NCBI GenBank assembly: GCA_016342595.1
Contig: JAEINY010000005.1
Location: forward strand, 1-64,000
From: Marinilabiliaceae bacterium
GTDB taxonomy: Bacteria; Bacteroidota; Bacteroidia; Bacteroidales; Marinilabiliaceae
DNA: 64,000 nucleotides
Reading direction: 5' to 3'
Shown here: piece after piece, positions 17,011 to 57,674 of the stretch
Layout: every line of letters starts with the position of its first letter
Position numbering within the stretch: the stretch's first letter is position 1
Translations under genes and position numbers: made by a program
The notes under the pieces: model-generated
Database searches by the model: none
What the model saw: the letters and a program-made list of their open reading frames with translations, nothing else
Told to the model about the DNA's origin: nothing

Positions 17011-17601
17011 ATGTCAGATAATGTAGAAAAAATAGTGGAAGGGCTAAAACAAGGTGACGAACGTTACTTTAATATCTTATTCAAAAAGTATTTTCGACAT
17101 TTACACTTCTTTGCTGCCCAGTATGTCAAAGATAGCAGCGCTGCCGAAAACCTGGTACAAGACACTTTTATGTCCCTTTGGCGAAAAAGAGCAGAGCTAA
17201 AGAGTCAAAATGAACCGGGTTTATTATCCTGGCTTTATACCGTTTTGAAGAATAACTGCTTTCATCATCTGAAACAACAAAAAGCCGAGCGAGAGTTTTC
17301 TTCTTCTTTGTTAGAAGAACAGGTGCAATTAGACATGACAGGGTTATTTGATATGGATACGTCTGAGCACACCTTCAACGAGATTTATAAGATTATTCAG
17401 CAAACATTAGAGGAATTATCGCCTCAATGTCGCCGTGTTTTCGAAATGAGCCGATTTGATGGGTTTAAAAACAGGGAGATTGCAGAAGTGTTGAATATTA
17501 CTGAAAAAGCAGTGGAGGGCAATATTACCAAGGCCTTAAAAGTGTTTAGAAAGTCACTAGAAACATATCTGCCACAATTGCTCCTGTTCCTTAATATTTG
17601 A
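17011..17601 (+). CDS. ECF-type RNA polymerase sigma factor of the PUL
   Basis: A 196-residue extracytoplasmic-function sigma factor that directs RNA polymerase to the PUL promoters when released by its anti-sigma partner. Region 2 spans about residues 20-85 (HFFAAQYVKDSSAAENLVQD, FMSLWRKRAEL). Region 4 spans about 125-185 (LEELSPQCRRVFEMSRFDGF followed by the HTH NREIAEVLNITEKAVEGNI). This is the usual partner of a FecR/SusC system in Bacteroidota. A good promoter precedes it, and the FecR gene starts 185 bases downstream. Confidence 0.93.
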   Translation: MSDNVEKIVEGLKQGDERYFNILFKKYFRHLHFFAAQYVKDSSAAENLVQDTFMSLWRKRAELKSQNEPGLLSWLYTVLKNNCFHHLKQQKAEREFSSSLLEEQVQLDMTGLFDMDTSEHTFNEIYKIIQQTLEELSPQCRRVFEMSRFDGFKNREIAEVLNITEKAVEGNITKALKVFRKSLETYLPQLLLFLNI

Positions 17602-17726
17602 CTACCATTATTCAGAAAACAGACCTGTTGTATTCTTTTTTGTCATTAATGTTCTTGCATTAAATCAGGTGTTTATCTTCTTTACTCTTCGTGATTGTTA
17701 ATATTTTAAAAAAAAGTATAAAAAAC

Positions 17727-17755
17727 ACCTAGGGGTAAATGCCTTTTCATACTCT
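17727..17755 (+). promoter_or_regulatory. Conserved-looking leader element before fecR
   Basis: Upstream of the anti-sigma gene lies CACCTAGGGGTAAATGCC and then TTTTCATACTC, about 30-60 bases before the start. AGGGGTAxxxxCCTTTT-like words occur before other FecR genes of Bacteroidota PULs, so this may be a promoter or operator for the cognate sigma factor. The claim rests on resemblance only. Confidence 0.3.
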
Positions 17756-17786
17756 TATTAATAAGTTTTCCATTTAATGAGTGATT

Positions 17787-18785
17787 ATGAAAGAAGATAG
17801 AATTTGGAAATACATTATTGGCGAAGGGAATGATGGAGAAAGGTTAGAGACCCTTCGTTGGATAAAGAGCGATGCAGCCCGGGTGGAAGACTACCATCGG
17901 TTGAAGCGTAATTATGCCATCAGCGGTCAGTCTTCAGAAATTTCAGATAAAGCTATAGCGCAATCATATCAAGTTATTAGGAGGCAGCTAGATGTGGCTC
18001 CCAAACGTTTTATGCGATTCTTTGCTGTGGCTTCCAGATACGCAGCTGTGATGGCCTTTACACTGATTGTTGGTTGGCTTCTCTTTACAAAAGAAGATAG
18101 ATTTAAGAGTCAATTGCAAGGGGAAATGTCCTATACTACTATTGAAACTTTACCGGGACAATCGTCAAAAGCCACGTTGCCAGACGGGACAGTAGTATGG
18201 CTAAACAGTGAGTCTAAATTAGAGTATTCCACACAGTTTGGTATTGGAAATGTACGGGATGTGAAGTTACTGGGAGAAGCTTTTTTTGATGTCACGAAAG
18301 ATTCAGTAAAGCCATTTCAAGTTTTAACAAGAGAGGTTACGGTTAAAGTATTAGGTACCTCTTTTAATGTGGAAGCCTATGATGGTGAAAATGTGGCGAC
18401 TACCCTTGTGGAGGGAAAAGTGGAGTTGGATAATCAGGCAGGTATTAAACTGGCAGATCTAAAACCAGGTCACCAGGCTATCTATTCTTCCATTGATAAA
18501 AAAGTTGAATTACAAGAGGTAGATACCGAATATTATGCCTCCTGGAAGGATGGGTATGTCACCTTTAGTAATGTCCGATTGGAAGAGATCGCACCTAAGT
18601 TGGAGCGTTTTTACAATGTCGATATTGAGTTTGGGAGTGAGCGTTCGAAAAATCTAAGGATTAATGGCAGGGCTATGAGGAATGTACCGGTTGATCATTT
18701 ATTTAGAGTGTTTAAGGTCACATTCGGTCTCAATTATGAAATACAGACATCCTTTGAAGAAAAAGGGAAGATTTATGTTTATTAA
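17787..18785 (+). CDS. FecR-family anti-sigma factor
   Basis: A 332-residue inner-membrane protein that holds the ECF sigma factor and transmits the signal from the SusC receptor's N-terminal signalling domain. The cytoplasmic N-terminus spans residues about 1-80 (WKYIIGEGNDGERLETLRWI). One membrane helix follows at about 86-104 (AVMAFTLIVGWLLF). The FecR domain (YTTIETLPGQSSKATLPDGT, VWLNSESKLEYST, GEAFFDVTKD) is about 115-215, and a C-terminal DUF4974 domain (FSNVRLEEIAPKLERFYNVD) about 260-332. ATG 17787 is preferred to GTG 17781. It is placed exactly between the sigma factor and the STN-bearing SusC. Confidence 0.92.
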   Translation: MKEDRIWKYIIGEGNDGERLETLRWIKSDAARVEDYHRLKRNYAISGQSSEISDKAIAQSYQVIRRQLDVAPKRFMRFFAVASRYAAVMAFTLIVGWLLFTKEDRFKSQLQGEMSYTTIETLPGQSSKATLPDGTVVWLNSESKLEYSTQFGIGNVRDVKLLGEAFFDVTKDSVKPFQVLTREVTVKVLGTSFNVEAYDGENVATTLVEGKVELDNQAGIKLADLKPGHQAIYSSIDKKVELQEVDTEYYASWKDGYVTFSNVRLEEIAPKLERFYNVDIEFGSERSKNLRINGRAMRNVPVDHLFRVFKVTFGLNYEIQTSFEEKGKIYVY

Positions 18786-18908: not shown

Positions 18909-18931
18909 AGTATAAACTCAAATACAAATTT

Positions 18932-21900
18932 ATGAAAAAAAAATGGTACATGTACCCTCCAGAATGGAGTGATGCAAAAACGTTAAAAGTTATGAAGATT
19001 TCTTTTCTACTGTTGGTCGTTTGTCTGGTGAATGTTTCGGCACGCACTTTTTCTCAAAATATGAAGTATAATATTTCGATGCGGGATGCTAATGTAAAAG
19101 AAGTATTAACCCGAATTGAAAAAGAATCGGATGTTTCGTTTTTCTACCAGGATGAAAATGCAGTAATTGAAAAGCGGGTGACGGTCGATTATAAAAATTC
19201 ATCTCTTACTGATATTCTAGATGATCTTTTGGGTGATATAAAAATGACCTATCGGATTATGGATAAGTATGTAGCTATTATTAATAAAGTTAAGGACGAA
19301 GGGCAACAGCAGGATGAAATGGTTGTAAAAGGTCTGGTTGTTGATAGTCAGGGGGAGCCTCTGCCTGGCGTTAATGTCTATGAAAAAAATAATCCGCAAC
19401 ATGGGGTTATTACCGGCATAGATGGATCGTATATTATTAAGGTGGATAGTCAGGATGATATTTTGGTTTTTTCTTTCATCGGATTTGGTGATCAGGAAAT
19501 AAATGTGGCAGGTCGCTCTCAACTAAACATTACACTTGTTGAAGAAATGAAAGGGCTTGATGAAGTGGTTGTAACTGCTCTTGGTATTAAAAAGGAAAAA
19601 AAAGCCTTGGGTTACACCATGGCCAGTGTTAGTTCCGAAGAATTGACCCAGAATGGTGAAACCAATGTGATTAGTGGCCTGCAAGGGAAAGTATCTGGAT
19701 TAAACATTGCCAAATCCGGAGGGTTTTCAGATGCCTCTTCATCAATTGTATTGCGGGGTAATACTTCCATTAATGGTAACAACCAAGCGCTGATTGTAGT
19801 TGATGGTGTCATTTTAAATAACTCTTTTTATGGGGATGATGAGGGCGAAATAGATCGTGGTCAGGGTATCTCCGATGTTAACGTAGATGACATTGAAAGT
19901 GTGAGTGTTCTAAAAGGACCCAACGCCGCTGCCTTATATGGTGCAAATGCTGCTAATGGTGTAATCGTGATTACCACCAAAAAAAGCCTAAACAAAACAG
20001 GACTGGGTGTAACCGTGAATACAGGTGTTTCTTTTACAGAAGTATATACAATGCCTAATCTGCAAAATGTGTATGGCCAGGGTAAAAGTGAAGTCGGTCA
20101 TTGGCAGGGGATAGGCGAAGATGGTATTCCGTTGATTGGTGCCAACAAAGATGAGTCCTGGGGACCCAAAATGGAAGGACAGCAAGTGCGCATCGACTGG
20201 TTACGAGATGAACCCTTAGATACCTACGATCCGCAACCTGATAATATCAGAGATTTATATGAAACGGGTGTTAACTGGAATACGACAGCCTCTATTTCTC
20301 ATGCTTCAGAAGAAGCGACCTATTACATGTCATTGTTATATAATAAAGGCGATGAGTTTGTGCCAACCGCTACCACTGAAAAAATGGGTGTGACTATGCG
20401 TACCACACAAAATATTACGGATAGGTTGTCAGTTGATGCTAAATTATCTTACTCTAAGTCAAAAGCACATAACCGACCCGAAAATAACTGGACCAGTGCC
20501 ATGAACATGGCGACTCACCCTCGTAGTTTGAAAATATCTCAATACAGCGATTATAAATACGGAGTGTCTGGTGAAACGTATGATAGAGCTGCCTGGAATG
20601 ATGGCAAACCCATCTTATGGACGGATACACCAAACATTGCGCAGTATTTTTGGAATTTGTATGAAAATAGCAATGACGATCAAAGAGATCGTGTGCTAGG
20701 TAATTTTAAAGTAGATTATAAATTTACTAACTGGTTATCTGCTTTGGTAAGATTTAGCTTCGACCAGACCTATTATAGTAAGCAAAAAATTCATGCGCCT
20801 GAAACCCGCGCCATACCACAAGGTAGATACACTAAAGATGATTTCAATCTATTAAACTACAACTCTGATTTCTTGTTAATGGCAAATAAGGATTTTGCCG
20901 GTGGTAAGTGGAATGTAAATGGTACATTTGGTGGAAGCCAAGTCGGTGTAAAAAATAAGTTTACTAATTTTCGTGGTGACGGATTTGTATTTGAAGGTTT
21001 ATTGACGCCAAACAACACAGCTGTAAAAAATTACGAATACGATGAAAATCGGAATGTTGTTAACTCCTTGTATGGTAATGCTCAATTAGGTTATAACCAC
21101 ATGTTGTACTTAGATGTTACGGGGCGTAACGACTGGAGTAGTAACTTGAGTCCTGATAACAACAGCTTCTTTTATCCTTCGGTAACAGGTAGTTTTATTT
21201 TGTCAGAAGTATTATCTATCGATAAAAACCTTTTAGGTTACGCGAAAGTGAGAGCATCATATGCAGAGGTAGGTAACGCCACTGGTGCTTCGATTTTAAG
21301 AAGCTATGGTTTTGCAAATGGAGCCAAAGGAGAGAATTATGCATATAATCCTGAAATTTTACCATTTTATGACCTGGAACCAGAGCGCACTAAAGCCTGG
21401 GAATTCGGTGTGGATTTAGCAGCCTTGCAAAATAGAGTTTCTTTAGATGTAACCGTTTATAAATCCAATACTTATAATCAAATTTTACCCACCCAGCCTA
21501 TTGCTGTTTCTTCAGGTTATCGATTTAAAGCAATCAATGGAGGTAATGTTCAGAATAAAGGTGTCGAGTTAACTTTAGGTCTGGACCCCATTAAAAATGC
21601 CAATTTCAAATGGCATATGGATGTTTTATATGCTAAAAATACTTCAGAAGTCATTGATTTGGGCGGTTTGGATAGTCCGATTGTAATCGGTTCGATGAAT
21701 GGAAATAACATACGTATTGCTGTTCAAAAAGGTCAACCATTTGGCGTCATTCAAGGTGAAGGATTCCTGCGTAATGACGATGGAATGGTTGTTGTAAAAG
21801 GAAAAGAGGCTGGAAGTAAACGCGGTGTACCACTCGGAACTGGCGAATACGATGATTTAGGTAAAATCGAAGCTGACTGGACGGGTTCTATTAGAAATAA

Positions 21901-22513
21901 ATTCACCTATAAGAATTTAACTCTTAATTGTTTAATTGATGCCAGTATTGGTGGCCATATCTTTAGTGGAGTAAACATGCAGTATGATGAACAAGGTACT
22001 TCGGTTGCATCCTTAAACGGTCGCGATGCGTGGATTGCTTCTGAAGATGCCCGTAAAGCTGCTGGCGTAGGTTCATCTGATTGGGATAATACAGGTGGTG
22101 TTAATATTTGGGTAGGTAACAGTGTGATTGATAATGGCCAAAGAGATGAGAATGGTAAGCAAATTGGTGGTACATCAAATGCCGGTGAAAATGCGCTTTA
22201 TGCTGACCCTATGAAATATTGGGATCAATTCCGTAATGAATTGATCGAAAACGGTGTTGAAGGTGCAACCTACGTTAAGATGAGAGAATTAAGTCTAACT
22301 TATGCCTTCGGTCACAATATTTTAAAATCATTACCTATCGAGGATTTACGTTTAACAGTAGTTGCTTCAAATCCTTGGCTATTGTACAAAGAAACAGAGC
22401 ATTATGATCCTGACGTATATCGCACAGGAATAGGTGCTGGTAGACAAGGATTAATGGACTACACGACCCCAAGTACCAGAACTTTTGGGTTTAATTTGAA
22501 GTTTAATTTTTAA
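18932..22513 (+). CDS. SusC/RagA-type TonB-dependent outer-membrane transporter
   Basis: A 1193-residue outer-membrane importer of glycan oligosaccharides. Order: signal-anchor region to about residue 42 (ISFLLLVVCLVNVSARTFSQ), STN signalling domain about 50-110 (NVKEVLTRIEKESDVSFFYQ), carboxypeptidase-regulatory-like domain about 135-205 (GEPLPGVNVYEKNNPQHGVI), TonB box region GLDEVVVTALGI, plug about 215-345 (SIVLRGNTSINGNNQALIVV), then a 22-strand barrel ending FGFNLKFNF. The STN domain explains the neighbouring sigma/FecR pair: ligand binding outside is signalled to FecR in the inner membrane. It is followed 18 bases later by susD. Confidence 0.95.
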   Translation: MKKKWYMYPPEWSDAKTLKVMKISFLLLVVCLVNVSARTFSQNMKYNISMRDANVKEVLTRIEKESDVSFFYQDENAVIEKRVTVDYKNSSLTDILDDLLGDIKMTYRIMDKYVAIINKVKDEGQQQDEMVVKGLVVDSQGEPLPGVNVYEKNNPQHGVITGIDGSYIIKVDSQDDILVFSFIGFGDQEINVAGRSQLNITLVEEMKGLDEVVVTALGIKKEKKALGYTMASVSSEELTQNGETNVISGLQGKVSGLNIAKSGGFSDASSSIVLRGNTSINGNNQALIVVDGVILNNSFYGDDEGEIDRGQGISDVNVDDIESVSVLKGPNAAALYGANAANGVIVITTKKSLNKTGLGVTVNTGVSFTEVYTMPNLQNVYGQGKSEVGHWQGIGEDGIPLIGANKDESWGPKMEGQQVRIDWLRDEPLDTYDPQPDNIRDLYETGVNWNTTASISHASEEATYYMSLLYNKGDEFVPTATTEKMGVTMRTTQNITDRLSVDAKLSYSKSKAHNRPENNWTSAMNMATHPRSLKISQYSDYKYGVSGETYDRAAWNDGKPILWTDTPNIAQYFWNLYENSNDDQRDRVLGNFKVDYKFTNWLSALVRFSFDQTYYSKQKIHAPETRAIPQGRYTKDDFNLLNYNSDFLLMANKDFAGGKWNVNGTFGGSQVGVKNKFTNFRGDGFVFEGLLTPNNTAVKNYEYDENRNVVNSLYGNAQLGYNHMLYLDVTGRNDWSSNLSPDNNSFFYPSVTGSFILSEVLSIDKNLLGYAKVRASYAEVGNATGASILRSYGFANGAKGENYAYNPEILPFYDLEPERTKAWEFGVDLAALQNRVSLDVTVYKSNTYNQILPTQPIAVSSGYRFKAINGGNVQNKGVELTLGLDPIKNANFKWHMDVLYAKNTSEVIDLGGLDSPIVIGSMNGNNIRIAVQKGQPFGVIQGEGFLRNDDGMVVVKGKEAGSKRGVPLGTGEYDDLGKIEADWTGSIRNKFTYKNLTLNCLIDASIGGHIFSGVNMQYDEQGTSVASLNGRDAWIASEDARKAAGVGSSDWDNTGGVNIWVGNSVIDNGQRDENGKQIGGTSNAGENALYADPMKYWDQFRNELIENGVEGATYVKMRELSLTYAFGHNILKSLPIEDLRLTVVASNPWLLYKETEHYDPDVYRTGIGAGRQGLMDYTTPSTRTFGFNLKFNF

Positions 22514-22531
22514 GAAGCTAACAATATAATT

Positions 22532-23959
22532 ATGAAAAAAATAGTCTTAATATCATTTATATTTTCATTATTTGTTTGTAGCTGTACGAATGACAGTTTT
22601 GAAGAAATAAATGAGGGATATAACAATCTTTCTGATGTTGATTACAATTACCTGGTTAATACCGGTATAAAAGCATTGGCCGATGGTGAGTTTTCTGTTA
22701 ACGATTGGGCACATTTAGTAGCCTATGCAAATTTTGCACCTGGTCAATATGATCATTGGAGAGGTTCAACGCCGTGGGATGGAACCTATCTAACAAATAA
22801 AAATTTGTTGGATGCACTTCAAAGAGCCGAAGTTGATGAAACTGAAAACGGAAGAAAAGCGGAAGCGATGGTGAAAATCTTACGTTCATATATTTTCGTA
22901 CGATTGACTGATACCTATGGTGACGTTCCATATTTCGAAGCAGGTTATGAAGGCAAAGACGGAATTAATGAAATGCCTAAATACGACAGTCAAAAAGCAA
23001 TTTATGAAGATTGCTATAAAAATTTGACTGAAGCCATTGAAACAATTGGCGACGAGTCAACCGTCCTGCTTGGTAATGCTGATTTCGTTTATAACCAGGA
23101 TTTACAACTGTGGAAAAAATTCGCTAACTCGCAAAGGCTACGCATGGCATTGCGTGTAAGCTATGTGGATAAAGCGTTAGCTGAGACTTGGTTAAGCCAT
23201 GTTCTTACTTATGATCTAATTAGTTCAACTGATGAAAGTGCTTCATATGCCCGTTTCATGGATGCTGGTTATGAAAATCCAAGATTTCAGAGCGGCAATA
23301 GAAATATTTCAGCAAAATTGGTTGATTATTTGTTAGTGCATGACGACCCACGCCTGCCCCAGCTTGCTACTTTACCTGCAACAGGTGTATACAAAGGCTT
23401 GCCCAATGGTTTAACCTTTGGAGAAGATCCTTCTTTTTCTTTATTAGGGCCAGAATTCACTCGCAGTGACAGACACACGCCTATCTTGATGTATTCTGAG
23501 GTGTGTTTCAACATGGCAGAATTATATGTAAGAGGATTAAGTGTAAGTGCAGATAATGCAAAAGCCAATGAATGGTTCAAAAAAGGTATTGAATCTTCTC
23601 TTAAAGAATGGAGTGTTGATGAAGAAACAGTTACTGCATTTATGCCTACAGTTCCTGATTTGAGCGGTGATACGGAAGATAAATTGGAGCAGATTGGGTC
23701 AGAAAAATGGGTGGCTTTCATGGACAATGGTCATGAAGCATATTCCGAACTTCGCAGAAGCGGTTATCCTGTGATTGCGGATCGTCAACCTGACCAGGGC
23801 CCTTCATTGGGTGAGACAAATGGTAAACTGCCAAGGAGATTTAAATATCCTAATGTTGAAATTTTATATAACACCGAAAACTATGAAAAAGCGGAAGCAG
23901 CAACCGATGGTGACAGTTTCTTAGCTAAGGTTTGGTGGGATGTAAGAGAGCTGAACTAA
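22532..23959 (+). CDS. SusD/RagB-type glycan-binding lipoprotein
   Basis: A 475-residue surface lipoprotein that caps the SusC channel and binds glycan. Lipobox FVCSC with Cys18 as the lipidated residue. TPR-like helical regions include NGRKAEAMVKILRSYIFVRL followed by TDTYGDVPYFEAGY, a hallmark of the SusD-like 2 group, and later MYSEVCFNMAELYVRG. The C-terminus has GHEAYSELRRSGYPVI and PRRFKYPNVE, also typical. It pairs with the preceding SusC and is followed by a strong terminator, so the enzyme genes downstream need read-through or their own promoter. Confidence 0.94.
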   Translation: MKKIVLISFIFSLFVCSCTNDSFEEINEGYNNLSDVDYNYLVNTGIKALADGEFSVNDWAHLVAYANFAPGQYDHWRGSTPWDGTYLTNKNLLDALQRAEVDETENGRKAEAMVKILRSYIFVRLTDTYGDVPYFEAGYEGKDGINEMPKYDSQKAIYEDCYKNLTEAIETIGDESTVLLGNADFVYNQDLQLWKKFANSQRLRMALRVSYVDKALAETWLSHVLTYDLISSTDESASYARFMDAGYENPRFQSGNRNISAKLVDYLLVHDDPRLPQLATLPATGVYKGLPNGLTFGEDPSFSLLGPEFTRSDRHTPILMYSEVCFNMAELYVRGLSVSADNAKANEWFKKGIESSLKEWSVDEETVTAFMPTVPDLSGDTEDKLEQIGSEKWVAFMDNGHEAYSELRRSGYPVIADRQPDQGPSLGETNGKLPRRFKYPNVEILYNTENYEKAEAATDGDSFLAKVWWDVRELN

Positions 23960-24318: not shown

Positions 24319-25605
24319 GTGTCAGTGGAAAGAAGAAAATTTATAAAACAAACAGCAATTGGTATATCATCAATGTATACCCTTGGGGGACTTATTGGAA
24401 CCGGTTGTAATATTGAAAAACAAACGAGGCGGGATCAATTTCTGACGATCTCCAAAGTAAAGAAACCATTGGCCATTGCCATGTGGGATTTTAGTTGGCT
24501 ATTGCGTCATCACCGTTATGGTGAATTCGAAAACTGGGAAAGAGTTATTAGTGAATTGGCAGAAAGAGGTTACAATGCCATTCGCATGGATTGTATGCCA
24601 CAGTTTGTGGTGTCTACAAAAGAGGGTAAAATAATCGACGAATTTCGGAGTGTAAAGAAGGACTGGAAACCTTGTATTTGGGGGAATGATTATACCATGT
24701 CTTTCCGGCCAAGGGAAGCGTTATTGGAATTTCTGCCACTGTGCCAGAAGTATGGAATAAAAGTAGGTCTATCTTCTTGGTTCGCACCTCATAATACCGG
24801 CCGTACTGATATTTTTATGGAAGAAGGTGGTGTTGTCAGAGCCTGGACAGAAACATTAGAATTTTTAAAAGTCAATGATTTACTTGATAATGTGATATAT
24901 GTTGATTTGTTAAATGAATACCCTAACAATCATGGCTATGATTGGTTAAAACAAGAATTAAATAAGCGATCAGATATTGATCAATTTAAAATAAATAATC
25001 CGGAAGCACATTTACCAGACCTCAAGAGTGCAAAGAAAAACGCATTGCAAATAGCTTATCACAATCAATTTATAAACGAAACAATCACTACTCTTAAATC
25101 AAGATTTCCAGCGTTAGAATTCTTCGCTTCTTATGATTCAGGTGTACCATTTGAAGATATTGATTTGACACCACATGCTGCTCTTGATTATCATGTATGG
25201 TTTAATCATCACGGTGATCTTCACAAAATGATACAGAAAATCGCTGATCGTGACCAATCAAAAAACTTGAAGAAGCTGCAAGTTGATTTATATCAATATT
25301 TTGATGCTAATAGAGTTGAATTAATTCAATGGATCGATAATCGAATAACAAAAGTAGCGAATAAAGCAGCAGAGCAAAGCAAGGTGTGTGGTAACACCGA
25401 AGGCTGGGGACCGATATGCTGGTTTGATCATCCCGAATTAGACTGGAAGTGGACAAAAGAGAGTGCCGAAATTTGTATTGATCTGGTGAAAAAGCATGAC
25501 AATTACAAATTTATCTGCACGTCCAACTTCACCCATCCGCAATTCAAAGGATTGTGGGACGATGTGGCGTGGCACCGCAAGGTCACCGACCGAATTAAAG
25601 CTTAA
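24319..25605 (+). CDS. Cellulase-like (GH5-like, clan A) exported glycosidase
   Basis: A 428-residue putative secreted glycoside hydrolase. The N-terminus has an RRKFIKQTAIG twin-arginine-like export motif and a possible lipobox (IGTGC, Cys30). A (beta/alpha)8 barrel is suggested by AIAMWDFSWLLRHHRYGEFE, GYNAIRMDC, and the acid/base candidate Glu in YVDLLNEYPNN. The nucleophile candidate is Glu in CGNTEGWGPICWFDHPELDW. These resemble the sugar-binding, cellulase-like family rather than a numbered GH family. The start is GTG 24319 (no ATG in range). It opens the enzyme part of the PUL, and the substrate is unknown. Confidence 0.7.
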   Translation: MSVERRKFIKQTAIGISSMYTLGGLIGTGCNIEKQTRRDQFLTISKVKKPLAIAMWDFSWLLRHHRYGEFENWERVISELAERGYNAIRMDCMPQFVVSTKEGKIIDEFRSVKKDWKPCIWGNDYTMSFRPREALLEFLPLCQKYGIKVGLSSWFAPHNTGRTDIFMEEGGVVRAWTETLEFLKVNDLLDNVIYVDLLNEYPNNHGYDWLKQELNKRSDIDQFKINNPEAHLPDLKSAKKNALQIAYHNQFINETITTLKSRFPALEFFASYDSGVPFEDIDLTPHAALDYHVWFNHHGDLHKMIQKIADRDQSKNLKKLQVDLYQYFDANRVELIQWIDNRITKVANKAAEQSKVCGNTEGWGPICWFDHPELDWKWTKESAEICIDLVKKHDNYKFICTSNFTHPQFKGLWDDVAWHRKVTDRIKA

Positions 25606-25640
25606 TAATTAGAAAACAACCATTGAAGGTATTAAGAAAG

Positions 25641-34318: not shown

Positions 34319-34441
34319 TTATAAAATATATGTTTGGTTTTCTTCTAACATTAGGGAATAGGAAAGGATCAATACAATTCAAGTATTGCTGGTGTTGATG
34401 AAAATGAAAGGTTTTATAATAAAACTTTCTAGCAAAATAAA

Positions 34442-34480
34442 ACAAATGTGCTGCTATAAGTGGCACATTTGTTTAACCTT
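34442..34480 (+). terminator. Terminator after GH2
   Basis: ACAAATGTGC (34442-34451) and GCACATTTGT (34463-34472) form a perfect 10-bp stem followed by TTAACCTTTTTG. It lies 124 bases past the GH2 stop and just before a decayed transporter. Confidence 0.65.
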
Positions 34481-34488
34481 TTTGTAAT

Positions 34489-34932
34489 ATGGGCACTATG
34501 ACAGGATATATTTATATAATCACAGCCACTGCAATTAATTGGAACTCTGGGGAAGTGAATTTCTATGATACTACTGGGCTTTTGTTTTATAAGGAATTAA
34601 ATGGAATAGTTGCCCTTGTATTCATATTGTTATTTGTTGCTTCTTTTGCTATGTTATATGGACCAGTTACATGGAGGCTATTTGCCAAAATATTTCCTAA
34701 TAGTATTAGGGGCAGATCCATGTCTGTTGATACAGCTGCAATGTGGACTTCCAACTTCCTTGTTCGCAAATATTTCCTGTATTAGATAGAAACCCACTTT
34801 TAGTAGAAAAATTTAATCATGGTTTTGTTTAATGGTTTAATAGTCCTGGGAGCATACCTGTTTATTTGGAAATTGGTATATGAAACAAAGGGTAGGAAAC
34901 TGGAAGGAAAAGAAGAATTATGGAGAAAGTAA
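34489..34932 (+). pseudogene. Decayed sugar-porter (MFS) gene, C-terminal part
   Basis: The first frame (34489-34785) contains the MFS sugar-porter signature LYGPVTWRLFAKIFPNSIRG-RSMS between two membrane helices. After a frame change, the second (to TAA 34930-34932) gives AYLFIWKLVYETKGRKLEGK-EELW, the family's last helix and PETKG-type motif. Together they cover only about the last quarter of a 450-500-residue XylE-like transporter. The N-terminal three quarters are missing and the frame is broken, so it cannot work as a transporter. Confidence 0.8.
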
Positions 34933-34994
34933 ACACGGGGATGTTGTGGAATCACCCAGTGTAGAGGTTATTATGGTGATGTAAAGGTGAAAAA

Positions 34995-49242: not shown

Positions 49243-50211
49243 ATGCATATGAAAAAGATCATTTCAATTAGCCTTTTGCTATTTATTTTTATTGGGAGTC
49301 AGGCACAAAAGTTAAAGTTTAACCAGAATGGTAACTTTAAGATTGTTCAATTTACAGATTTGCATTTTTTATATTCAACCCAAGAAAATGTATTAAATAA
49401 TCTCAACAAAGTATTGGATATTGAACAGCCGGATTTAGTGATTATAACCGGGGACTTAATGTCCGAACCAAACTATGCCGAAGGGTTTGATGTATTGATA
49501 CAACCCATTGTTGAGCGTCAAATTAATTGGTGTGTTGTTTTCGGAAATCATGATCATGAACTTGATTTAACTCGATCGGAAATCAATGAATTAATAAGTA
49601 AATATCCATACAACGTTAATGGGAAAAACCCGACAGGTGTTTATGGTGATACCAATTACCTATTGGAGGTAAAAGAATCACACACTAATAAAACGGGTGC
49701 TTTAATATACTGCATGGATAGTAATACTTATTCTGAATACGATCATATTGAAGGCTATGGATGGTTTGATCACACACAAATTGATTGGTATGTGAGAACG
49801 AGTGAAAAGTTCAAGAAAAAGAAATTGTTACCTGCCTTATCATTCTTCCACATTCCTCTTCCTGAATTTCATGATGCCAAAACGATAAATGACGATGGAA
49901 TTTTAGGAGAAAAAGAGGAAACTGTCTGTACTGGAAAAATTAATAGTGGGTTGTTTAGTGCTTTTTTGCGTCAAAAAGATGTGATGGGAATATTTGTGGG
50001 GCATGATCATTTGAATGATTATATTGCTTCGTATTACGGTATCGCTTTGGCATATTGTCGATACAGCGGTAGTACTAATATGTACGGATTAAAGATGAAT
50101 GGTGCACGCGTAATTGAGTTGAAGGAGGGTGAAAGAGTGTTTGATACATGGATTAGACTACGTAGTGGTGATAGAATTAACGAGTATCATTTTCAAAGTA
50201 AGTGTAAATAG
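49243..50211 (+). CDS. Exported calcineurin-like metallophosphoesterase
   Basis: A 322-residue exported phosphoesterase, signal peptide to about residue 22 (ISLLLFIFIGSQAQ). A second in-frame ATG at 49249 is equally plausible. All metal-binding blocks are present: VQFTDLHFLYST (D-x-H), VIITGDLMSEP (GD), VVFGNHDHELDL (GNHD), FFHIPLPEF (H) and IFVGHDHLNDY (GHDH). It resembles the Dcr2/purple-acid-phosphatase-like group. Together with the EEP protein it makes two secreted phosphoesterase-fold enzymes in this PUL. A role in removing phosphate from the target glycan is inference. Confidence 0.88.
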   Translation: MHMKKIISISLLLFIFIGSQAQKLKFNQNGNFKIVQFTDLHFLYSTQENVLNNLNKVLDIEQPDLVIITGDLMSEPNYAEGFDVLIQPIVERQINWCVVFGNHDHELDLTRSEINELISKYPYNVNGKNPTGVYGDTNYLLEVKESHTNKTGALIYCMDSNTYSEYDHIEGYGWFDHTQIDWYVRTSEKFKKKKLLPALSFFHIPLPEFHDAKTINDDGILGEKEETVCTGKINSGLFSAFLRQKDVMGIFVGHDHLNDYIASYYGIALAYCRYSGSTNMYGLKMNGARVIELKEGERVFDTWIRLRSGDRINEYHFQSKCK

Positions 50212-50296: not shown

Positions 50297-51049
50297 ATGA
50301 AGAAAAAACCATATACCGTTTTACCCATTATGATCCTTTATTTGTGCTTGATCATGTTATTGAATCAAGGTTGTTATGGAACTATAGCAGAAAGTCATGA
50401 ATGTCAAAAGCAGGCAACTTTTGTGCAAAAACTTGAAAGGGGTGAAAAAGTAAGGCTGGGTGCACTTGGAACAAGTCTGACTGGTGGTGATACACCTTGG
50501 TTTGATGTCATGAAGGAATGGTTTAATAAAGATTACCCAGCACAGCTTGAATATCTTAATCTTGGCATTTCAGCATCGGCTTCTTCTTACCCGCCAGGTG
50601 AATCTGGGCTGGCTATGGTCAATGAGATGATCAAATTCAATCCGGATGTTGTGTTTATAGAATTTGCGGTTAATGATGCTTATGAACCGTACCAGATTTC
50701 GATGGAAGAAAGCAGGCACAACCTGGAAGCAATGATTAACAGCTTGAAAAGCAGCAACCCGGAGGTTGAAATAATAGTACAGACGATGAATGTTGTTATT
50801 GACATGCCAGAACTGGATATGTCAGAATCAACGAAACGATCTGCATTGGCTGATTATTACGGCGTCTATCGACAGGTGGCAGCAGATATGGGCTTATTAT
50901 TAATTGATCATTATCCCAATTGGCAAAATTTACTACGATCTAAAGGTCGGGAACTATTTATTCAATATGTGCCAGATGGCATTCATCCGAATTATGAGGG
51001 GTATCGAAAAATAGTAATTCCTGAGTTACAGAAATACTTCAAATCATAA
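50297..51049 (+). CDS. SGNH/GDSL-family hydrolase (probable deacetylase)
   Basis: A 250-residue exported SGNH hydrolase. The signal region contains a possible lipobox (MLLNQGC, Cys26). Catalytic blocks: block I LGALGTSLTGGDTPW with Ser60 (GTS replaces the common GDS), block III EFAVNDAYEP (Asn), and block V VPDGIHPNYEGY (Asp-x-x-His). Such enzymes in PULs usually remove acetyl groups from sugars. It is followed 48 bases later by the second GH92, and its stop is only 3 bases before a longer possible start of that gene. Confidence 0.85.
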   Translation: MKKKPYTVLPIMILYLCLIMLLNQGCYGTIAESHECQKQATFVQKLERGEKVRLGALGTSLTGGDTPWFDVMKEWFNKDYPAQLEYLNLGISASASSYPPGESGLAMVNEMIKFNPDVVFIEFAVNDAYEPYQISMEESRHNLEAMINSLKSSNPEVEIIVQTMNVVIDMPELDMSESTKRSALADYYGVYRQVAADMGLLLIDHYPNWQNLLRSKGRELFIQYVPDGIHPNYEGYRKIVIPELQKYFKS

Positions 51050-51097
51050 GCTATGATTTCAAAGGAAAGATTAAAATGTACATTAAATCATCAAAAA

Positions 51098-53341
51098 ATG
51101 AAAAGATTGATGCAATTAATGGTTCCTGTTTGCCTGTTATTAACTGCTTGCGGATCTGGACAATTTAACAAACAGGGGATTGATATTCTGAGTTATGTGG
51201 ATCCGCTAATAGGAACCGGTGGTCATGGCCATACTTACCCGGGGGTCACTAGGCCCTTTGGAATGGTACAGGTGGGACCATCCAATTATTCGAAAGGCTG
51301 GGATTGGTGTTCCGGTTATCATTATTCTGATACGGTATTACAGGGGTTTGCGCATACCCACCTGAGCGGGACCGGATTATCCGGACTGGGAGATATTCTG
51401 ATAATGCCCACATCAGGAAAACTATTCCTGGTGCCCGGCACTGATGAGTTTCCTGATGAGGGATATAGTTCCAGGTGGTCGCATAAGCGGGAAAAGGCTT
51501 CGCCAGGGGTTTACCAGGTATATCTTGATGATTACGATATCGATGTGGAAGTTACCTGTACCAAACGAACCGGATTACATCGTTACACCTTCAACAGAGC
51601 AAGTGAACACAATATAATTATCGACCCAACACATCGAATTGATGAAAAGCTGCTCAATACCGAGGTAGAAATCTTATCCGATACTGAAATTCGCGGTTTT
51701 AAGCACTCCAAAGGAAATGGTGGCGATCGTAAGGTTTATTTCTATGCTCGTTTTTCAAAACCATTTCAAAATTCGGGAGTGGCTGTTGAAGGCAATAGAA
51801 CTGAAGGTCGAAAAGCCAGTTCCCAAGCCTCCTCTGCTTTTGTGCAATATCACAGCAAAGCAGGAGAGCAAGTAGAGGTGAAAATCGGCTTGTCATTTGT
51901 AAGTTATGAAGGGGCTTATAAAAATTACCAGGCTGAAGCGGGTGACAAGGATTTTGATACGGTATTACAGGAAGCTCAGGAAGTATGGGAACATCACCTG
52001 GGTAAAGTCGTTGTTGAGGATGATAACGAAATCAATAAACGCATCTTTTATACCGCATTGTATCATTCTCTTCTGGTGCCAAACCTAATTAACGATGTGG
52101 ATGGTAACTATGTGGTTGAGGGCAAACAGTATCAGGGAGAATCCAATCAATACAGCACTTATTCTACCTGGGATACCTTTCGGGCACAAAATCCATTGCT
52201 AACGATATTGGAGCCTGCCTATGTTTCAGAAATCGTCAATTCTTTAATTTCCAGGCAAACCGTGGCAAAAGTCGGGCTGCCCATTTGGGAATTGACCGGA
52301 CACGATAACGGCTGTATGCCTTCTTATACACCGGTTTCAGTTGTAGTTGATGCGGTGAGAAAAGGAATCCCCGGGATTGATGCAGAAGAGGCTTATGAGG
52401 CCATACGGGCTACCAGTATGATGGACTGGAAACACAGTGCCTTTGTGTCGGAGCCCGTGGTGCCATGGATTAAAAAGTTGAATTATGTACCGGCTCATGT
52501 ATGGGAGTCGTGTGCTCAAACCATTGAGTATGCCTATCAGGATTGGTGTATTTACCGCTTGGCAAAGGATCTGAACAAAGCTGATACCAGTTATTACCTC
52601 AACCGTTCAAAAAGCTACCGGAATCTTTTTAATGAAGATATCGGGTATATTGCTCCTAAGGATTCACTGGGCAATTGGGTGCCCATCGACCTGAACAAGT
52701 GGGAGGGCATACGCCCTCATTACATCACCGGAAACATTTGGGGCTATTCTACATTTGTACCTCATGAAATAGAAAACATTATTGAGCTAAAAGGCGGTCC
52801 GGAGAAGTTTTGCAACTGGTTGGATGAAATCATCAGTGATACTACCGAAATAGAAGGAGATGCCCATGTGGATATTAATGGCTTTATTGGGCGTTACGGT
52901 CACGGTGATGAACCTTCTCATCACATCCCGTATTTGTATAATTATGCCGGTCAGCCCTGGAAAACACAGGAGTTGGTCCGCCGTGTGATGAATACATTTT
53001 ATAGCGATCAACCCGATGGTTTAATCAATAATGAAGATTGTGGTCAGATGTCTTCCTGGTACATTATGGGAGCACTGGGATTTTATTCATTTTGTCCGGG
53101 TGATAATCGATACACACTTTCTTCTCCTTTTTTTAAGAAGGTAACATTGCATCTGGATAATGGAAAAAATACAGTTATTACAACCGAAAATAAAGTAGAT
53201 AAAATATACATCAAGTCGCTGCATATAAATGGGCAGGTTTATAACAAAAACATCATATCCCATCAAATGCTTACTGAAGGTGTTAATTTGAATTATAAAT
53301 TGAGCGATCAACCCAACCGAAATTGGGGAATTCGAGATTAA
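51098..53341 (+). CDS. GH92 exo-alpha-mannosidase (copy 2)
   Basis: A 747-residue lipoprotein. ATG 51098 gives MKRLMQLMVPVCLLLTAC with lipidated Cys18. A start at 51053 would add 15 non-signal residues. Motifs: YVDPLIGTGGHGHTYPGVTR, FGMVQVGPSNYSKGWDWCSG, GFAHTHLSGTGLSGLGD, YSTWDTFRAQNPLLTILEPA, LTGHDNGCMPSYTP and NNEDCGQMSSWYIMGALGFY. This is the classical GH92 arrangement, of the type seen in many alpha-mannosidases. The middle sequence YVPAHVWESCAQTIEYAYQD is well conserved, so the enzyme is probably active. Confidence 0.93.
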   Translation: MKRLMQLMVPVCLLLTACGSGQFNKQGIDILSYVDPLIGTGGHGHTYPGVTRPFGMVQVGPSNYSKGWDWCSGYHYSDTVLQGFAHTHLSGTGLSGLGDILIMPTSGKLFLVPGTDEFPDEGYSSRWSHKREKASPGVYQVYLDDYDIDVEVTCTKRTGLHRYTFNRASEHNIIIDPTHRIDEKLLNTEVEILSDTEIRGFKHSKGNGGDRKVYFYARFSKPFQNSGVAVEGNRTEGRKASSQASSAFVQYHSKAGEQVEVKIGLSFVSYEGAYKNYQAEAGDKDFDTVLQEAQEVWEHHLGKVVVEDDNEINKRIFYTALYHSLLVPNLINDVDGNYVVEGKQYQGESNQYSTYSTWDTFRAQNPLLTILEPAYVSEIVNSLISRQTVAKVGLPIWELTGHDNGCMPSYTPVSVVVDAVRKGIPGIDAEEAYEAIRATSMMDWKHSAFVSEPVVPWIKKLNYVPAHVWESCAQTIEYAYQDWCIYRLAKDLNKADTSYYLNRSKSYRNLFNEDIGYIAPKDSLGNWVPIDLNKWEGIRPHYITGNIWGYSTFVPHEIENIIELKGGPEKFCNWLDEIISDTTEIEGDAHVDINGFIGRYGHGDEPSHHIPYLYNYAGQPWKTQELVRRVMNTFYSDQPDGLINNEDCGQMSSWYIMGALGFYSFCPGDNRYTLSSPFFKKVTLHLDNGKNTVITTENKVDKIYIKSLHINGQVYNKNIISHQMLTEGVNLNYKLSDQPNRNWGIRD

Positions 53342-53423
53342 AGTTTTGTTTGGATTATAAGTATTCTTCTATTAGGGGGGTATAAAAGTCAAATGTTTAA
53401 AGTTGTATTTTAAAAGGTATATA

Positions 53424-55640
53424 ATGAATGTAAAAAATAAGTTAAATGGTTTAATCGTCAGTGTTGTATTGATTTTTGGTATTGCAAGTAGCATTTCTTC
53501 TCAATCAAATAAAGAGCAAGACAACAAAGTGGATAACTTACAGTTTGTTGATCCCACGATTGGAAACGTGGGCCACTTGCTTCAGCCCACACGGCCTACA
53601 GTTCAATTGCCTAACCAGGCCTTACGCATGTATCCCATGAGAAGCGACCACCTGGATGACCGCATCCGGTTTTTCCCTTTAAACCTGAAGTCGCATCGTC
53701 TGGGAGAATTGTTTGCTTTTATGCCTTTTACAGGCGAAGAGCAAGGGGAACCGATCTCGGCATGGGATGAGCAATTGGAACAAACAAGGCCTTATTATTA
53801 TTCAACCTGGCTGGAGGATTATAATGTAACCGTTGAGTTTACAGTAGGGGCAAAAGCCGGTATTTATCGCCTCACCTTTCATGATAATGAAGAGAAAAAA
53901 GTTTTTCTTAAGAACCTGAATGATGGGAATCTTCAGTTGCAAGAAACGGAATTAAAGGGAGTGGAGCATTTCGAAGGGATGAGTGCCTACCTGGTGGGTG
54001 AATTTTCTGCACCTATGCAGGTAATCAACAGTGCAGAACTTAAAAACCGACAGGCAGAATGGTTGCGTGCTACTAATAAGGCCTCCAATCAATTGTTGTT
54101 TAAATACGCTATTTCCTATATCGATCATCAACAGGCACAACAAAATCTGATGAACGAAATACCGGGATGGGATTTTGAAGGAACAAAGGCACACGCCAGC
54201 GTTGAGTGGTCAAAAGTCATGAACCAGATTGAAGTAAAAGGGGGCAGTGAAGCCCATAAGCGGACCTTCTATACGGCTTTATACCGCTGTTATGAGCGAA
54301 TGGTGAATATTTCCGAAGGTGGCCGTTATTACAGCGGCTATGATAAGCAAGTGCATGAAAGTGAGCGCGATTTTTATGTGGACGATTGGGTATGGGATAC
54401 TTATCTGGCTCACCATCCGCTGCGAGCGATATTGCATCCTGAACAAGAAGGGGATATGATGCATTCTTTTGTGGAAATGTATGAGCAAAGTGGTTGGATG
54501 CCAACATTTCCTGTGATATATGGCGACCATGTGTGTATGAATGGTTTTCACTCTACCATCTCATTACTGGATGCCTGGAACAAAGGGATTCGAAACTTTA
54601 ATCTGGAGAAAGCTTATGAGGGCGCTCTCAAAAATGCAATGCAAGCTACCATGCTTCCCTGGCGCAACGGCCCTAAATGCCAACTGGATGATTTTTATGC
54701 CGAAAAGGGATTTTACCCTGCTTTGAAGCCCGGTGACAAAGAAACGGAACCGTTGGTACACTCCTTTGAAAAAAGGCAGTCGGTGGCTATTACTTTGGGG
54801 CACAGTTACGACGATTGGGCATTGGCTCAAATGGCAAAAGAACTTGGTGAAACGGAAAATTATAACGCGTTTATGCGCCGTTCGGATAATTTCAAAAATC
54901 TGTGGAGTGCTGATGACAGGCTTTTTATGCCCAAAGACAAAGAGGGGAGATGGATTGACATTGATCCCAAATTTGATGGAGGAATGGGAGCCCGGGATTA
55001 TTACGATGAAAATAATGGATGGACCTATCAATGGCAGGTGCAGCACGACATACCAGCACTCATTGAATTAATGGGCGGCAAAGACGGCTTTGAAGACCGG
55101 CTGGATCAGATGTTCCGCGAGAGCCTTGAAAGAAGTAAATATGAGTTTTGGGCGAAGCTACCCGATGCCACCGGTTTGGTAGGGCAATTCTCCATGGGTA
55201 ATGAACCCAGTTTCCATATCCCTTATTTGTATAATTTCACTGATTCGCCCTGGAAAACTCAAAAGAAAATAAGGATGCTGATTGATACCTGGTACGGTGA
55301 CAATATTTTTGGCATACCGGGTGATGAAGATGGAGGTGGTATGACTGCTTTTGTAGTATTCTCATGCATGGGATTTTATCCGGTTACACCTGGTATTCCG
55401 GTTTATACCATCGGTACCCCATTTTTTGAAGAAACGATCATTCACCTTGAAAATGGAAAGAAATTTACCCTCAAAGCGCATAATTTTTCTGAAACCAATA
55501 AATACATTCAATCAGCCAGTTTGAATGGGAAGCCACTCCATACCCCATTCTTTTCACACGAAGAGTTAATGAATGGAGTATCCCTTGAATTTGAGATGGG
55601 ACCTTATCCGAATAAGGAATGGGGCCAACAGGCTCCCTAA
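53424..55640 (+). CDS. GH92-like protein, divergent (copy 3)
   Basis: A 738-residue exported GH92 homologue, signal peptide 1-26 (GLIVSVVLIFGIASSISSQ). ATG 53424 is preferred to an upstream ATG at 53403. The C-terminal helical domain is typical: DWVWDTYLAHHPLRAILHPE, GWMPTFPVIYGDHVC, GNEPSFHIPYLYNFTDSPWK and GDEDGGGMTAFVVFSCMGFY. The N-terminal sandwich is unusual. The block GFSHTHxSGTG is absent and replaced by QALRMYPMRSDHLDDRIRFF. This is a separate GH92 subgroup, and its linkage specificity is likely different from copies 1 and 2. Confidence 0.85.
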   Translation: MNVKNKLNGLIVSVVLIFGIASSISSQSNKEQDNKVDNLQFVDPTIGNVGHLLQPTRPTVQLPNQALRMYPMRSDHLDDRIRFFPLNLKSHRLGELFAFMPFTGEEQGEPISAWDEQLEQTRPYYYSTWLEDYNVTVEFTVGAKAGIYRLTFHDNEEKKVFLKNLNDGNLQLQETELKGVEHFEGMSAYLVGEFSAPMQVINSAELKNRQAEWLRATNKASNQLLFKYAISYIDHQQAQQNLMNEIPGWDFEGTKAHASVEWSKVMNQIEVKGGSEAHKRTFYTALYRCYERMVNISEGGRYYSGYDKQVHESERDFYVDDWVWDTYLAHHPLRAILHPEQEGDMMHSFVEMYEQSGWMPTFPVIYGDHVCMNGFHSTISLLDAWNKGIRNFNLEKAYEGALKNAMQATMLPWRNGPKCQLDDFYAEKGFYPALKPGDKETEPLVHSFEKRQSVAITLGHSYDDWALAQMAKELGETENYNAFMRRSDNFKNLWSADDRLFMPKDKEGRWIDIDPKFDGGMGARDYYDENNGWTYQWQVQHDIPALIELMGGKDGFEDRLDQMFRESLERSKYEFWAKLPDATGLVGQFSMGNEPSFHIPYLYNFTDSPWKTQKKIRMLIDTWYGDNIFGIPGDEDGGGMTAFVVFSCMGFYPVTPGIPVYTIGTPFFEETIIHLENGKKFTLKAHNFSETNKYIQSASLNGKPLHTPFFSHEELMNGVSLEFEMGPYPNKEWGQQAP

Positions 55641-55668: not shown

Positions 55669-55994
55669 ACTGATTGTGCGAGTGAGCGACGTAAGGGCTT
55701 CTGGCAGGCCTGATGCACTATGTTTAAGGAAGAAATGATCCCGGGGATGCGGTTTAAAACCTATCCGGCTGTTGAAATGATTGAATAGCATAAACTGTGG
55801 TTTTAATCTATCGCTACACTGATAGTTTTGATACCGGAGCATTGAAAGGGTCAAGAACAGGGCAATCGCATTTATAATAGATTTGAAATTTGGTGCACTT
55901 CGGAAAGGTTATTTTATTTTTTTTGACCCTCTCTCCTCCCCTTAGTCATCGGGATTTCTCCAATGGGGACGAGGGTTCTTCAACTTAAAGTTTT
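55669..55994 (+). other. Spacer before the sulfatase, no gene seen
   Basis: AT-rich with a C/T-rich patch near 55927-55955. It has short frames with broken protein-like pieces (around 55680-55790) but nothing assignable. Confidence 0.3.
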
Positions 55995-56002
55995 TATATT
56001 TG
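55995..56002 (+). promoter_or_regulatory. TAnnTTTG -7 box upstream of the sulfatase
   Basis: TATATTTG is an exact Bacteroidota -7 word, 110 bases before the sulfatase ATG. The matching -33 element is weak, so the assignment is tentative. Confidence 0.35.
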
Positions 56003-56111
56003 ACCAAACGAAGTATTACAAATTGTCAAATTACAAAAAGACAGGATACTTGAACTTTTAAATGCATTTGCCCTGGGGGTGGGTCCATCTATCAATAAAA
56101 AAATGTAGAAC

Positions 56112-57674
56112 ATGAACAATTTTTTTAAAACAAGCTTACTGACCTTTTCGGTTTTCAGTTTATTGGGAGGATGTCAGTCTCCTGAAAAAAAAGAACAGCA
56201 ACCAAATATCCTGTTCATCATGGCCGATGACCACACTTCCCAGGCATGGGGGATATATGGGGGTGTTTTAAAGGATTATGTACACACCCCCAACATCAGC
56301 CGGCTGGCGGAAGAGGGATGTGTGTTGGAGAACTGTTTGGTTTCCAATTCGATCTGTTCACCCAGTAGAGCCACTATCTTAACAGGGCAGTATAGTCATT
56401 TGAATGGCGTACCCACTTTAGCTGATGCCCTGGAGCCTCAAAAGGAGAATATTGCCAAAGAACTGCAAAAAGGAGGGTATGAAACAGCTATTATAGGAAA
56501 ATGGCATCTGAAAAAAGAACCTTCCGGCTTTGACTACTATTGTGTTTTGCCGGGCCAAGGGGTGTATTGGGATCCGGTGCTGAAAACCCGGGAAAACTGG
56601 AAAGATCACCATGGCGGCGGTAAAGCCTATTCGGGTTTTAGTACCGATGTGATTGCTGATATGAGCATCGACTGGATGAAAAACAGGGATGATTCCAAAC
56701 CATTTATGATGATGTGTCACTTCAAAGCCACCCATGAACCGTTTGATTATCCCGACAGGCATAAAGATTTGTATAAAGATGTGGAAATACCTGCCCCGGC
56801 CTCTATCTTTGATAAAGGACCCGAAACAACCGGACGATCCTTCAAGGGGCAGGCGTTGGATAATTTGGCAGATCGCTATATGAAGGCATCAGCTGATCCG
56901 GATAAATGGTGGTGTAAGTATCCGGGATTACCCTTCACAACTGAAGGTTTGGATAAAAATGAAGCGCGCATGAAAACCTATCAGAAGTTTGTGAAGGATT
57001 TTATGCGTTGTGGAGCTGCTATTGACGATAACATCGGTAAACTCCTGGAATATCTGGAGGAATCCGGTCTGGCTGAGAATACGATTGTGATCTATACAGC
57101 TGATCAGGGCTATTATTTAGGTGAACACGGTTGGTTTGATAAACGCATGATTTACGAAGAGTCCATTCATATGCCTTTTGTGATCCGTTACCCGAAGGAG
57201 ATACCTGCCGGCACCCGAAATAGCGATATCATTGAAAATGTGGATTTCTCGGCTTTATTTGCGGACTACGCCGGAATAGACTATCCTAAAGAGATGCAGG
57301 GATACAGTTTCAGGGAGAACTTAAAAGGTCATACCCCGGATGACTGGCGGAAGTATGGATACTATCGCTATTGGTTGCACAGTGTGGATCGTCCCGCTCA
57401 CTTCGGTATCAGAGGCGATCGTTATAAGTTGGTTTTCTTTTATGGGCAGCCCCTGGGTATGAAAGGGGCCCAGCAACAGACCACCGAGCCCGCCTGGGAA
57501 TTTTTCGATCTGGAGAAGGATCCTCAGGAACTGCATAATGCCATTCAGGAGCCGGAGTATCAGGAAATCATCACACAGATGAAAGATGAATTAAAGAAAA
57601 AGCGTGAACAGCTAGGTGATACTGATGAACAATACCCGGTGATGCAGAAAATATTTGAGAAACACTGGAATTAA
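56112..57674 (+). CDS. S1-family sulfatase (FGly-type) lipoprotein
   Basis: A 520-residue exported sulfatase with a lipobox (FSLLGGC, Cys21). The active-site Cys82 in NSICSPSRATILTGQYSHLN (C-x-P-x-R core) is the residue matured to formylglycine. Metal-binding ADDHTSQAWG is near residue 40. Further family segments are IIGKWHLKKEPSGFDYY, IYTADQGYYLGEHGWFDKRM and EFFDLEKDPQELHNA. It belongs to the S1 (arylsulfatase A-like) family. The subfamily is not determined. An anaerobic sulfatase-maturing enzyme must be elsewhere in the genome. It sits at the end of the PUL, and desulfation of the target glycan is the likely role. Confidence 0.93.
   Translation: MNNFFKTSLLTFSVFSLLGGCQSPEKKEQQPNILFIMADDHTSQAWGIYGGVLKDYVHTPNISRLAEEGCVLENCLVSNSICSPSRATILTGQYSHLNGVPTLADALEPQKENIAKELQKGGYETAIIGKWHLKKEPSGFDYYCVLPGQGVYWDPVLKTRENWKDHHGGGKAYSGFSTDVIADMSIDWMKNRDDSKPFMMMCHFKATHEPFDYPDRHKDLYKDVEIPAPASIFDKGPETTGRSFKGQALDNLADRYMKASADPDKWWCKYPGLPFTTEGLDKNEARMKTYQKFVKDFMRCGAAIDDNIGKLLEYLEESGLAENTIVIYTADQGYYLGEHGWFDKRMIYEESIHMPFVIRYPKEIPAGTRNSDIIENVDFSALFADYAGIDYPKEMQGYSFRENLKGHTPDDWRKYGYYRYWLHSVDRPAHFGIRGDRYKLVFFYGQPLGMKGAQQQTTEPAWEFFDLEKDPQELHNAIQEPEYQEIITQMKDELKKKREQLGDTDEQYPVMQKIFEKHWN

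Follow-up and report, generated by a model that had tools for sequence, protein, structure and literature searches.

A large Marinilabiliaceae gene cluster as a candidate composite locus for a fucose-containing, probably sulfated glycan

The DNA studied here (the window) is a stretch of 64,000 nucleotides from a Marinilabiliaceae bacterium (GenBank assembly GCA_016342595.1, contig JAEINY010000005.1). Positions 17011-57674 hold a cluster of about 41 kb of the polysaccharide utilization locus (PUL) type, with every gene on the plus strand. With a probability of about one half, we regard this cluster as a composite PUL acting on a matrix glycan that contains fucose, is probably sulfated and also carries alpha-mannose, alpha-galactose and beta-xylose. 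The reading is based on the family assignments, on the residues kept in the glycoside hydrolase (GH) 139 and GH31 proteins, on the enzyme signature of PULs for fucose-containing sulfated polysaccharides (FCSP), on the genomic context of one of the three GH92 proteins (GH92c), on a porter scar between the two halves of the cluster and on the order of the genes on one strand.

According to this reading the SusC/SusD pair, regulated by FecR and an extracytoplasmic function (ECF) sigma factor, would import fragments of a heteroglycan whose side chains are trimmed by exported exo-enzymes. Beta-xylose would be removed by GH120 and GH43, 2-O-methyl-fucose by GH139, fucose by GH29, alpha-galactose by GH31 and alpha-mannose by GH92a and GH92c, while the sulfatase, the SGNH esterase and the two phosphoesterases would remove ester groups. 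The most likely target would be a matrix glycan from algae or microbes, belonging to the sulfated polysaccharides that contain fucose, and the freed fucose would pass to an independent, genome-wide fuc operon.

Gene content and organization of the cluster

Families were assigned from Pfam matches and from sequence and profile matches to the Protein Data Bank (PDB), and all activities are predicted. The genes for the ECF sigma factor, FecR, SusC and SusD come first, followed by 17 genes for exported enzymes or proteins resembling enzymes and by a sulfatase gene:

17011-17601, plus: ECF sigma factor (Pfam Sigma70_r2, r4_2)
17781-18785, plus: FecR anti-sigma factor (Pfam FecR, FecR_C)
18932-22513, plus: SusC-like TonB-dependent receptor with an N-terminal signalling-type segment (Plug, CarbopepD_reg_2; weak FecR_C match at amino acids (aa) 48-114)
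22532-23959, plus: SusD-like lipoprotein (PF12771, E=1e-71)
24319-25605, plus: GH5-like protein, candidate endo-enzyme (PF12876, E=2e-61)
25623-27554, plus: GH120 beta-xylosidase homologue (PF21258; PDB 3VST)
27559-28602, plus: GH43, beta-xylosidase/arabinofuranosidase-type (PF04616; PDB 3QED, E=1e-43)
28602-30848, plus: GH139 (DUF5703), 2-O-methyl-L-fucosidase family (PDB 9HYQ (BT0984), 9HMB)
30962-34318, plus: GH2 (Pfam GH2; best PDB match only 94 bits, too weak for specificity)
34319-34994 (676 bp), plus: scar, decayed C-terminal fragment of a major facilitator superfamily (MFS) sugar porter (homology, in-frame stops)
34995-36287, plus: (alpha/alpha)6-type, GDE_C/GH94-like protein (PF06202, 22.7 bits, weak)
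36324-38489, plus: 721-aa protein (weak trehalase-like matches only)
38617-39840, plus: right-handed beta-helix protein (no Pfam match; AlphaFold model)
39859-41865, plus: GH29 alpha-L-fucosidase with CHB_HEX_C_1 and PA14 domains (PF01120, E=7e-88)
41884-44142, plus: GH92a, acid Glu present, NDD motif (Pfam, alignment)
44312-45574, plus: 420-aa exported protein (no family match)
45618-46958, plus: EEP-fold phosphoesterase with a C-terminal trefoil-like repeat region (PF03372; repeats read by eye)
47059-49215, plus: GH31, alpha-galactosidase-type (888 bits to 4XPO, PsGal31A)
49243-50211, plus: calcineurin-like phosphoesterase, exported (PF00149)
50297-51049, plus: SGNH/GDSL hydrolase, possible O-acyl esterase (PF13472)
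51053-53341, plus: GH92b, acid Glu replaced by Thr559 (codon ACC; Pfam, alignment)
53403-55640, plus: GH92c, divergent N-domain clade, DED motif, acid present (Pfam, alignment)
56112-57674, plus: S1-type sulfatase with an intact CSPSR motif at Cys82

A first-pass annotation, made from the sequence alone, had described a PUL of about 40 kb with GH29, GH31, GH2, GH43, SGNH and sulfatase genes. All of these were recovered with Pfam on the plus strand, and seven cluster genes (24319, 34995, 36324, 38617, 44312, 45618 and 49243) are added here. The gaps between genes mostly range from -1 to 179 bp, and longer ones are found after SusD (359 bp), after GH2 (676 bp) and before the sulfatase (471 bp). 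There is only one set of regulator and SusC/SusD genes, and the cluster may form a single regulon. A scan for the Bacteroidota promoter pattern gave seven plus-strand sites against 3.4 in shuffles, one of them just ahead of the sigma gene, a result too weak to be used.

The source genome (G000; 6.76 Mb in 461 contigs) is fragmented and slightly contaminated (6%), and the window belongs to a contig of 76.5 kb. The rpoB gene of this genome shares 87% identity with that of a metagenome-assembled genome labelled Marinilabiliaceae, one of those listed as members of the same family. In total the source genome contains about 20 GH29 matches, 16 GH92 matches and 60 sulfatase matches, some of the latter partial. 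The relatives cited below come from searches of samples of genomes, G-numbers denoting genomes and L-numbers fetched loci.

Predicted enzymes and their relatives

The product of the open reading frame 25623-27554 had been labelled GH141-like. This assignment was rejected, since its sole PDB match is the GH120 xylosidase 3VST (XylC; 500 bits, E=6.8e-149, best stretch at aa 173-640) and the GH120 insertion domain (PF21258) is present. For the neighbouring DUF5703 protein the domain itself was correctly noted but the family had been missed: the PDB entries that it matches strongly, 9HYQ and 9HMB (lowest E 3e-221, by profile), both belong to GH139. A literature search on DUF5703 returned nothing. 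The founding member of GH139 is a 2-O-methyl-fucosidase (PMC12282258), and the roles of the active-site residues were taken from the same work; the numbering of the aligned residues served to identify the PDB chain of BT0984. The catalytic set is kept in the window protein (base N388, partner Q387, acid E529, stacking W639 and the conserved D681). The position of Asn729 of BT0984 is occupied by Cys687, and in this GH139 clade the same position holds Asp in 13 of 19 sequences, Cys in five and Thr in one; Asp is also the residue that GH95 has there. Of the Trp triad associated with chain B of rhamnogalacturonan-II (RG-II), which about 40% of the family members possess, two residues are retained (given as W171 and W380, and also as W162 and W403), and Phe465 stands in place of W490.

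The three GH92 proteins already noticed in the first-pass annotation are indeed present and share about 29-31% pairwise identity, but one of them departs from the family at a critical position. They were aligned with 76 GH92 open reading frames from the fetched loci, a few duplicates included. At the position of the general acid, Glu533 of BT3990, 73 rows have Glu, four partial rows a gap and two rows Thr, these two being GH92b and its own duplicate fetch. As the codon of Thr559 is ACC, one read error cannot account for the replacement. The roles of the acid and base in GH92 have been described (PMC5930347, PMC12858847), and AnGH92A lost its activity when this Glu was changed (PMC12858847). 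Lacking the acid, GH92b is probably inactive. Both residues are present in GH92a and GH92c. The NDD or NED motif has been tied to alpha-1,3-mannosidases and DED to alpha-1,2-mannosidases (PMC12858847). GH92c lacks the HTHxSGTG motif of the N-domain and belongs to a distinct clade whose members across the order show 43-61% identity.

The GH31 protein is aligned with PsGal31A, an alpha-galactosidase in whose +1 site fucose has been seen (PMC9491548). The galactose-specifying residues Trp486 and Tyr274 are matched, as well as Arg418 and Glu366 of the +1 site.

Four proteins (34995, 36324, 38617 and 44312) may represent carbohydrate-enzyme families that are still unassigned. Relatives of the GDE_C-like protein match PF17167, and the protein is found near GH92c in G034, G032 and G028. 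The 721-aa protein has a relative solely in G092, where a single open frame (L141:10523-13354) joins it to GH29 and F5/8 domains. The beta-helix protein was modelled with a pLDDT of 73 and a VIA Z of about 27 against beta-helix proteins; the fold search returned a generic beta-helix across many families, and no family was assigned. It is rare, occurring in seven of 247 genomes including the source genome, with 58-68% identity. Relatives of the 420-aa protein were found in G084 and G092 only; its AlphaFold model, built from only two sequences, reached a pLDDT of 28 and no fold is claimed. The four would be candidates for new enzyme families; the 721-aa protein has a fucosidase fusion elsewhere, and the beta-helix protein lies beside GH92, GH99 and sulfatases in several genomes.

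The presence of two phosphoesterases led us to consider a target of the glycosylphosphatidylinositol type or a phosphomannan. In G077 a protein of 1244 aa (L122:5449-9183) fuses a glycerophosphodiester phosphodiesterase domain with GH92 and PA14 domains and adjoins the closest relative of GH92c (61%), which suggests a phosphodiester-linked mannoside.

The porter scar and the competing explanations

In the scar between GH2 and the GDE_C-like gene, some 115 codons from the C-terminal region of a porter survive, with in-frame stops. Its closest relatives (about 37-38% identity over 128 aa, E=3e-20) are porters lying beside GH139 in L023, L046, L015 and L012. MFS porters of this kind were found in four of 80 GH139 loci and in two of 52 other stretches, one of the two being beside GH120. 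The first half of the cluster (GH120-GH43-GH139-GH2) ends in this porter remnant, and the cluster appears to have been put together from two older gene sets.

The relatives of each half are found separately. GH139 and GH120 adjoin in Pedobacter (L012) and Niabella (L014), accompanied by AraC and PhyH dioxygenase genes. The latter, of the Fe(II)/2-oxoglutarate type, lies between AraC and GH120/GH139 (L012:8263-9165, L014:2912-3817), and a role as O-demethylase for methylated fucose is speculation on our part. The beta-helix gene adjoins GH92c in G127 and G076 and a GH92 gene in G595, and it lies beside an EEP phosphoesterase gene in G056 and G638. In several genomes the neighbourhood of GH92c relatives includes GH99, sulfatases and the beta-helix protein, and GH99 or GH99-like genes accompany loci of the GH92c/beta-helix type in G127, G595, G032, G050 and G056. 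By analogy, this company points to a sulfated alpha-mannoside as the target of the second half. The sulfated, mannose-containing target proposed in the first-pass annotation fits these relatives, the GH92 proteins and the CSPSR sulfatase. Given the separate relatives and the scar, each half would have its own history, and both were joined in the window under one SusC/SusD set. A GH120/GH139 module, formerly with an MFS porter, would have been joined to a mannoside module made up of GH92c, the beta-helix protein, phosphoesterase and sulfatase.

The same evidence gives weight to a different explanation, namely that two loci for two substrates merely abut: one for xylose and methyl-fucose (24.3-34.3 kb, with SusC/SusD) and the other for mannoside, fucose and sulfate (35.0-57.7 kb), its transporter lost or borrowed. 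The 676-bp scar separates these halves, GH120 and GH139 occur together without GH92 in Pedobacter and Niabella, and GH92c, the beta-helix protein and GH99 occur together without GH120 or GH139 in relatives. Because of the scar and the independent relatives, this reading, which the first-pass annotation itself had named as counting against a single target, is a serious rival that we consider about half as likely as a composite single PUL. However, one SusC/SusD and regulator set would have to serve both halves, the strand is shared and the next long gap after the scar comes only at the sulfatase. Moreover the fucose chemistry is split, with GH139 in one half and GH29 in the other, and GH120 is also present in three of the six other beta-helix genomes, though at distant places.

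Plant and algal N-glycans, with a mannose core bearing xylose, fucose and galactose, have sugars that suit GH92, GH29, a beta-xylosidase and a galactosidase. A glycoprotein N-glycan was thus weighed as the target, the more so as relatives of the second half carry GH99, a family that includes endo-mannosidases. It appears improbable, since Pfam finds no GH18, GH85, PNGase or GH20 in the cluster and since the sulfatase, the phosphoesterases and GH139 are unneeded for plant N-glycans. RG-II itself, suggested by the membership in GH139, is a most improbable target: no rhamnosidase or pectin lyase family was found in the cluster with Pfam, three GH92 proteins and a sulfatase would have no role there, and the Trp triad of GH139 is incomplete.

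Some observations also weigh against the composite PUL for a fucose-containing sulfated glycan. Pfam finds only one sulfatase in the cluster, while several are usual in FCSP PULs, and no endo-enzyme could be named with confidence. With two of the three RG-II Trp residues, the GH139 protein does not have an assured specificity for methyl-fucose. Moreover the full cluster was found, with five probes, in none of the other genomes searched, so that the joint working of the halves is putative.

One undescribed target glycan, as first proposed, is possible. A bolder form of this idea, in which the whole cluster degrades one glycan combining 2-O-methyl-fucose, alpha-galactosyl-fucose, beta-xylose and phosphorylated or sulfated alpha-mannose, and in which the products of 34995, 36324, 38617 and 44312 include founders of new GH or lyase families, seems rather doubtful. 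Should the single-substrate reading prove correct, GH139 would act on a substrate other than RG-II. This would bear on the role of the many non-RG-II GH139 proteins and would point to 2-O-methyl-fucose in a matrix glycan of algae or microbes. If instead two modules share one transporter, the porter scar would be a readable example of PUL assembly.

The neighbouring fuc operon and comparison with known systems

A fuc operon precedes the cluster:

5613-14402: araC (minus); fucI, fucK, fucP, RhaD-like aldolase, fucO and esterase (plus)

The first-pass annotation had linked this operon to the cluster. The operon exists, but the link consists of adjacency only: fucI-fucK-fucP recur in about 15 relatives (20-kb stretches; fucI identity 75-87%), in about 12 of them with araC beside fucI, and in none of these does the cluster adjoin, the stretches showing at most GH29, GH43, sulfatases or a SusC piece. 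A specific coupling was rejected, as the operon has its own araC and recurs without the cluster, and as an esterase gene, a yhdH-type gene on the opposite strand and roughly 1 kb of DNA lie between the two. Two additional fucI copies in the source genome (G000:C335 and C73, L182 and L183) belong to another type of operon. Each of them lies beside a different kinase gene of the FGGY type and a regulator of the LacI type, and the two may represent a single locus assembled from two strains. With the operon conserved without the cluster, and with about 20 GH29 matches and extra fucI copies in the genome, the adjacency is no evidence for a dedicated pathway, and the fuc operon is a separate housekeeping unit and a neighbour only. 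Its aldolase (11491-12288) is of the RhaD type, above the cutoff of that model, and not of the FucA type.

Further neighbours in the window are a gene for an M64 (IgA-peptidase-type) metallopeptidase upstream of the fuc operon (2347-3834) and, directly after the sulfatase but on the other strand, one for a tetratricopeptide repeat protein of the histidine kinase type (57936-60257). Just beyond the window, on the minus strand, lies a gene for a GH38-like protein (PF01074; G000:C204 about 64675-67365, L266:1176-3866) with 57% identity over 897 aa to the product of the gene directly before GH139 in Chitinophaga polysaccharea (L013).

The first-pass annotation saw no match to well-known systems. 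This holds for the combination as a whole, found in no searched genome, but not for its parts, in which the signatures of FCSP PULs (PMC6298971) and of sulfated alpha-mannan PULs (PMC6298971, PMC13063451) are recognizable. FCSP PULs of marine Flavobacteriia combine GH29/GH95, GH43/30/39/120 and GH2/3/31/97 with sulfatases (PMC6298971). The cluster shares their large size and sulfatase, SusC/SusD (18932-23959), GH29 (with GH139 in addition) and GH43/GH120 with GH2/GH31. It differs from them by adding GH139, three GH92 proteins, two phosphoesterases and four unassigned proteins, by having one sulfatase and by its Bacteroidales-type host.

One type of alpha-mannan PUL (type A) contains several GH92 proteins and sulfatases (PMC6298971), and the breakdown of a sulfated diatom mannan involves GH195, GH92 and two sulfatases (PMC13063451). 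With these Polaribacter-type PULs the cluster shares several GH92 proteins and a sulfatase, and a second likeness lies in the GH92c relatives linked to GH99 and sulfatases. In contrast, the cluster has xylose, fucose and galactose enzymes and one GH92 protein without the acid, and no GH99 match was obtained in it with Pfam. A yeast-mannan PUL was rejected, as Pfam finds no GH76 or GH125 in the cluster.

GH139 also occurs in a fucose/sulfate locus of Verrucomicrobia, PUL-4, which has GH141 and several sulfatases and for which GH92 is unmentioned (PMC8857213). The RG-II loci of Bacteroides thetaiotaomicron (BT0984; PMC12282258) share a GH139 with the same catalytic residues, whereas the RG-II rhamnosidase and lyase families are absent from the cluster. 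A literature search for GH120 and GH92 in one PUL returned nothing. What makes the cluster unusual is that one locus unites the FCSP and alpha-mannan signatures and adds to them GH139, a pair of phosphoesterases and four unassigned proteins.

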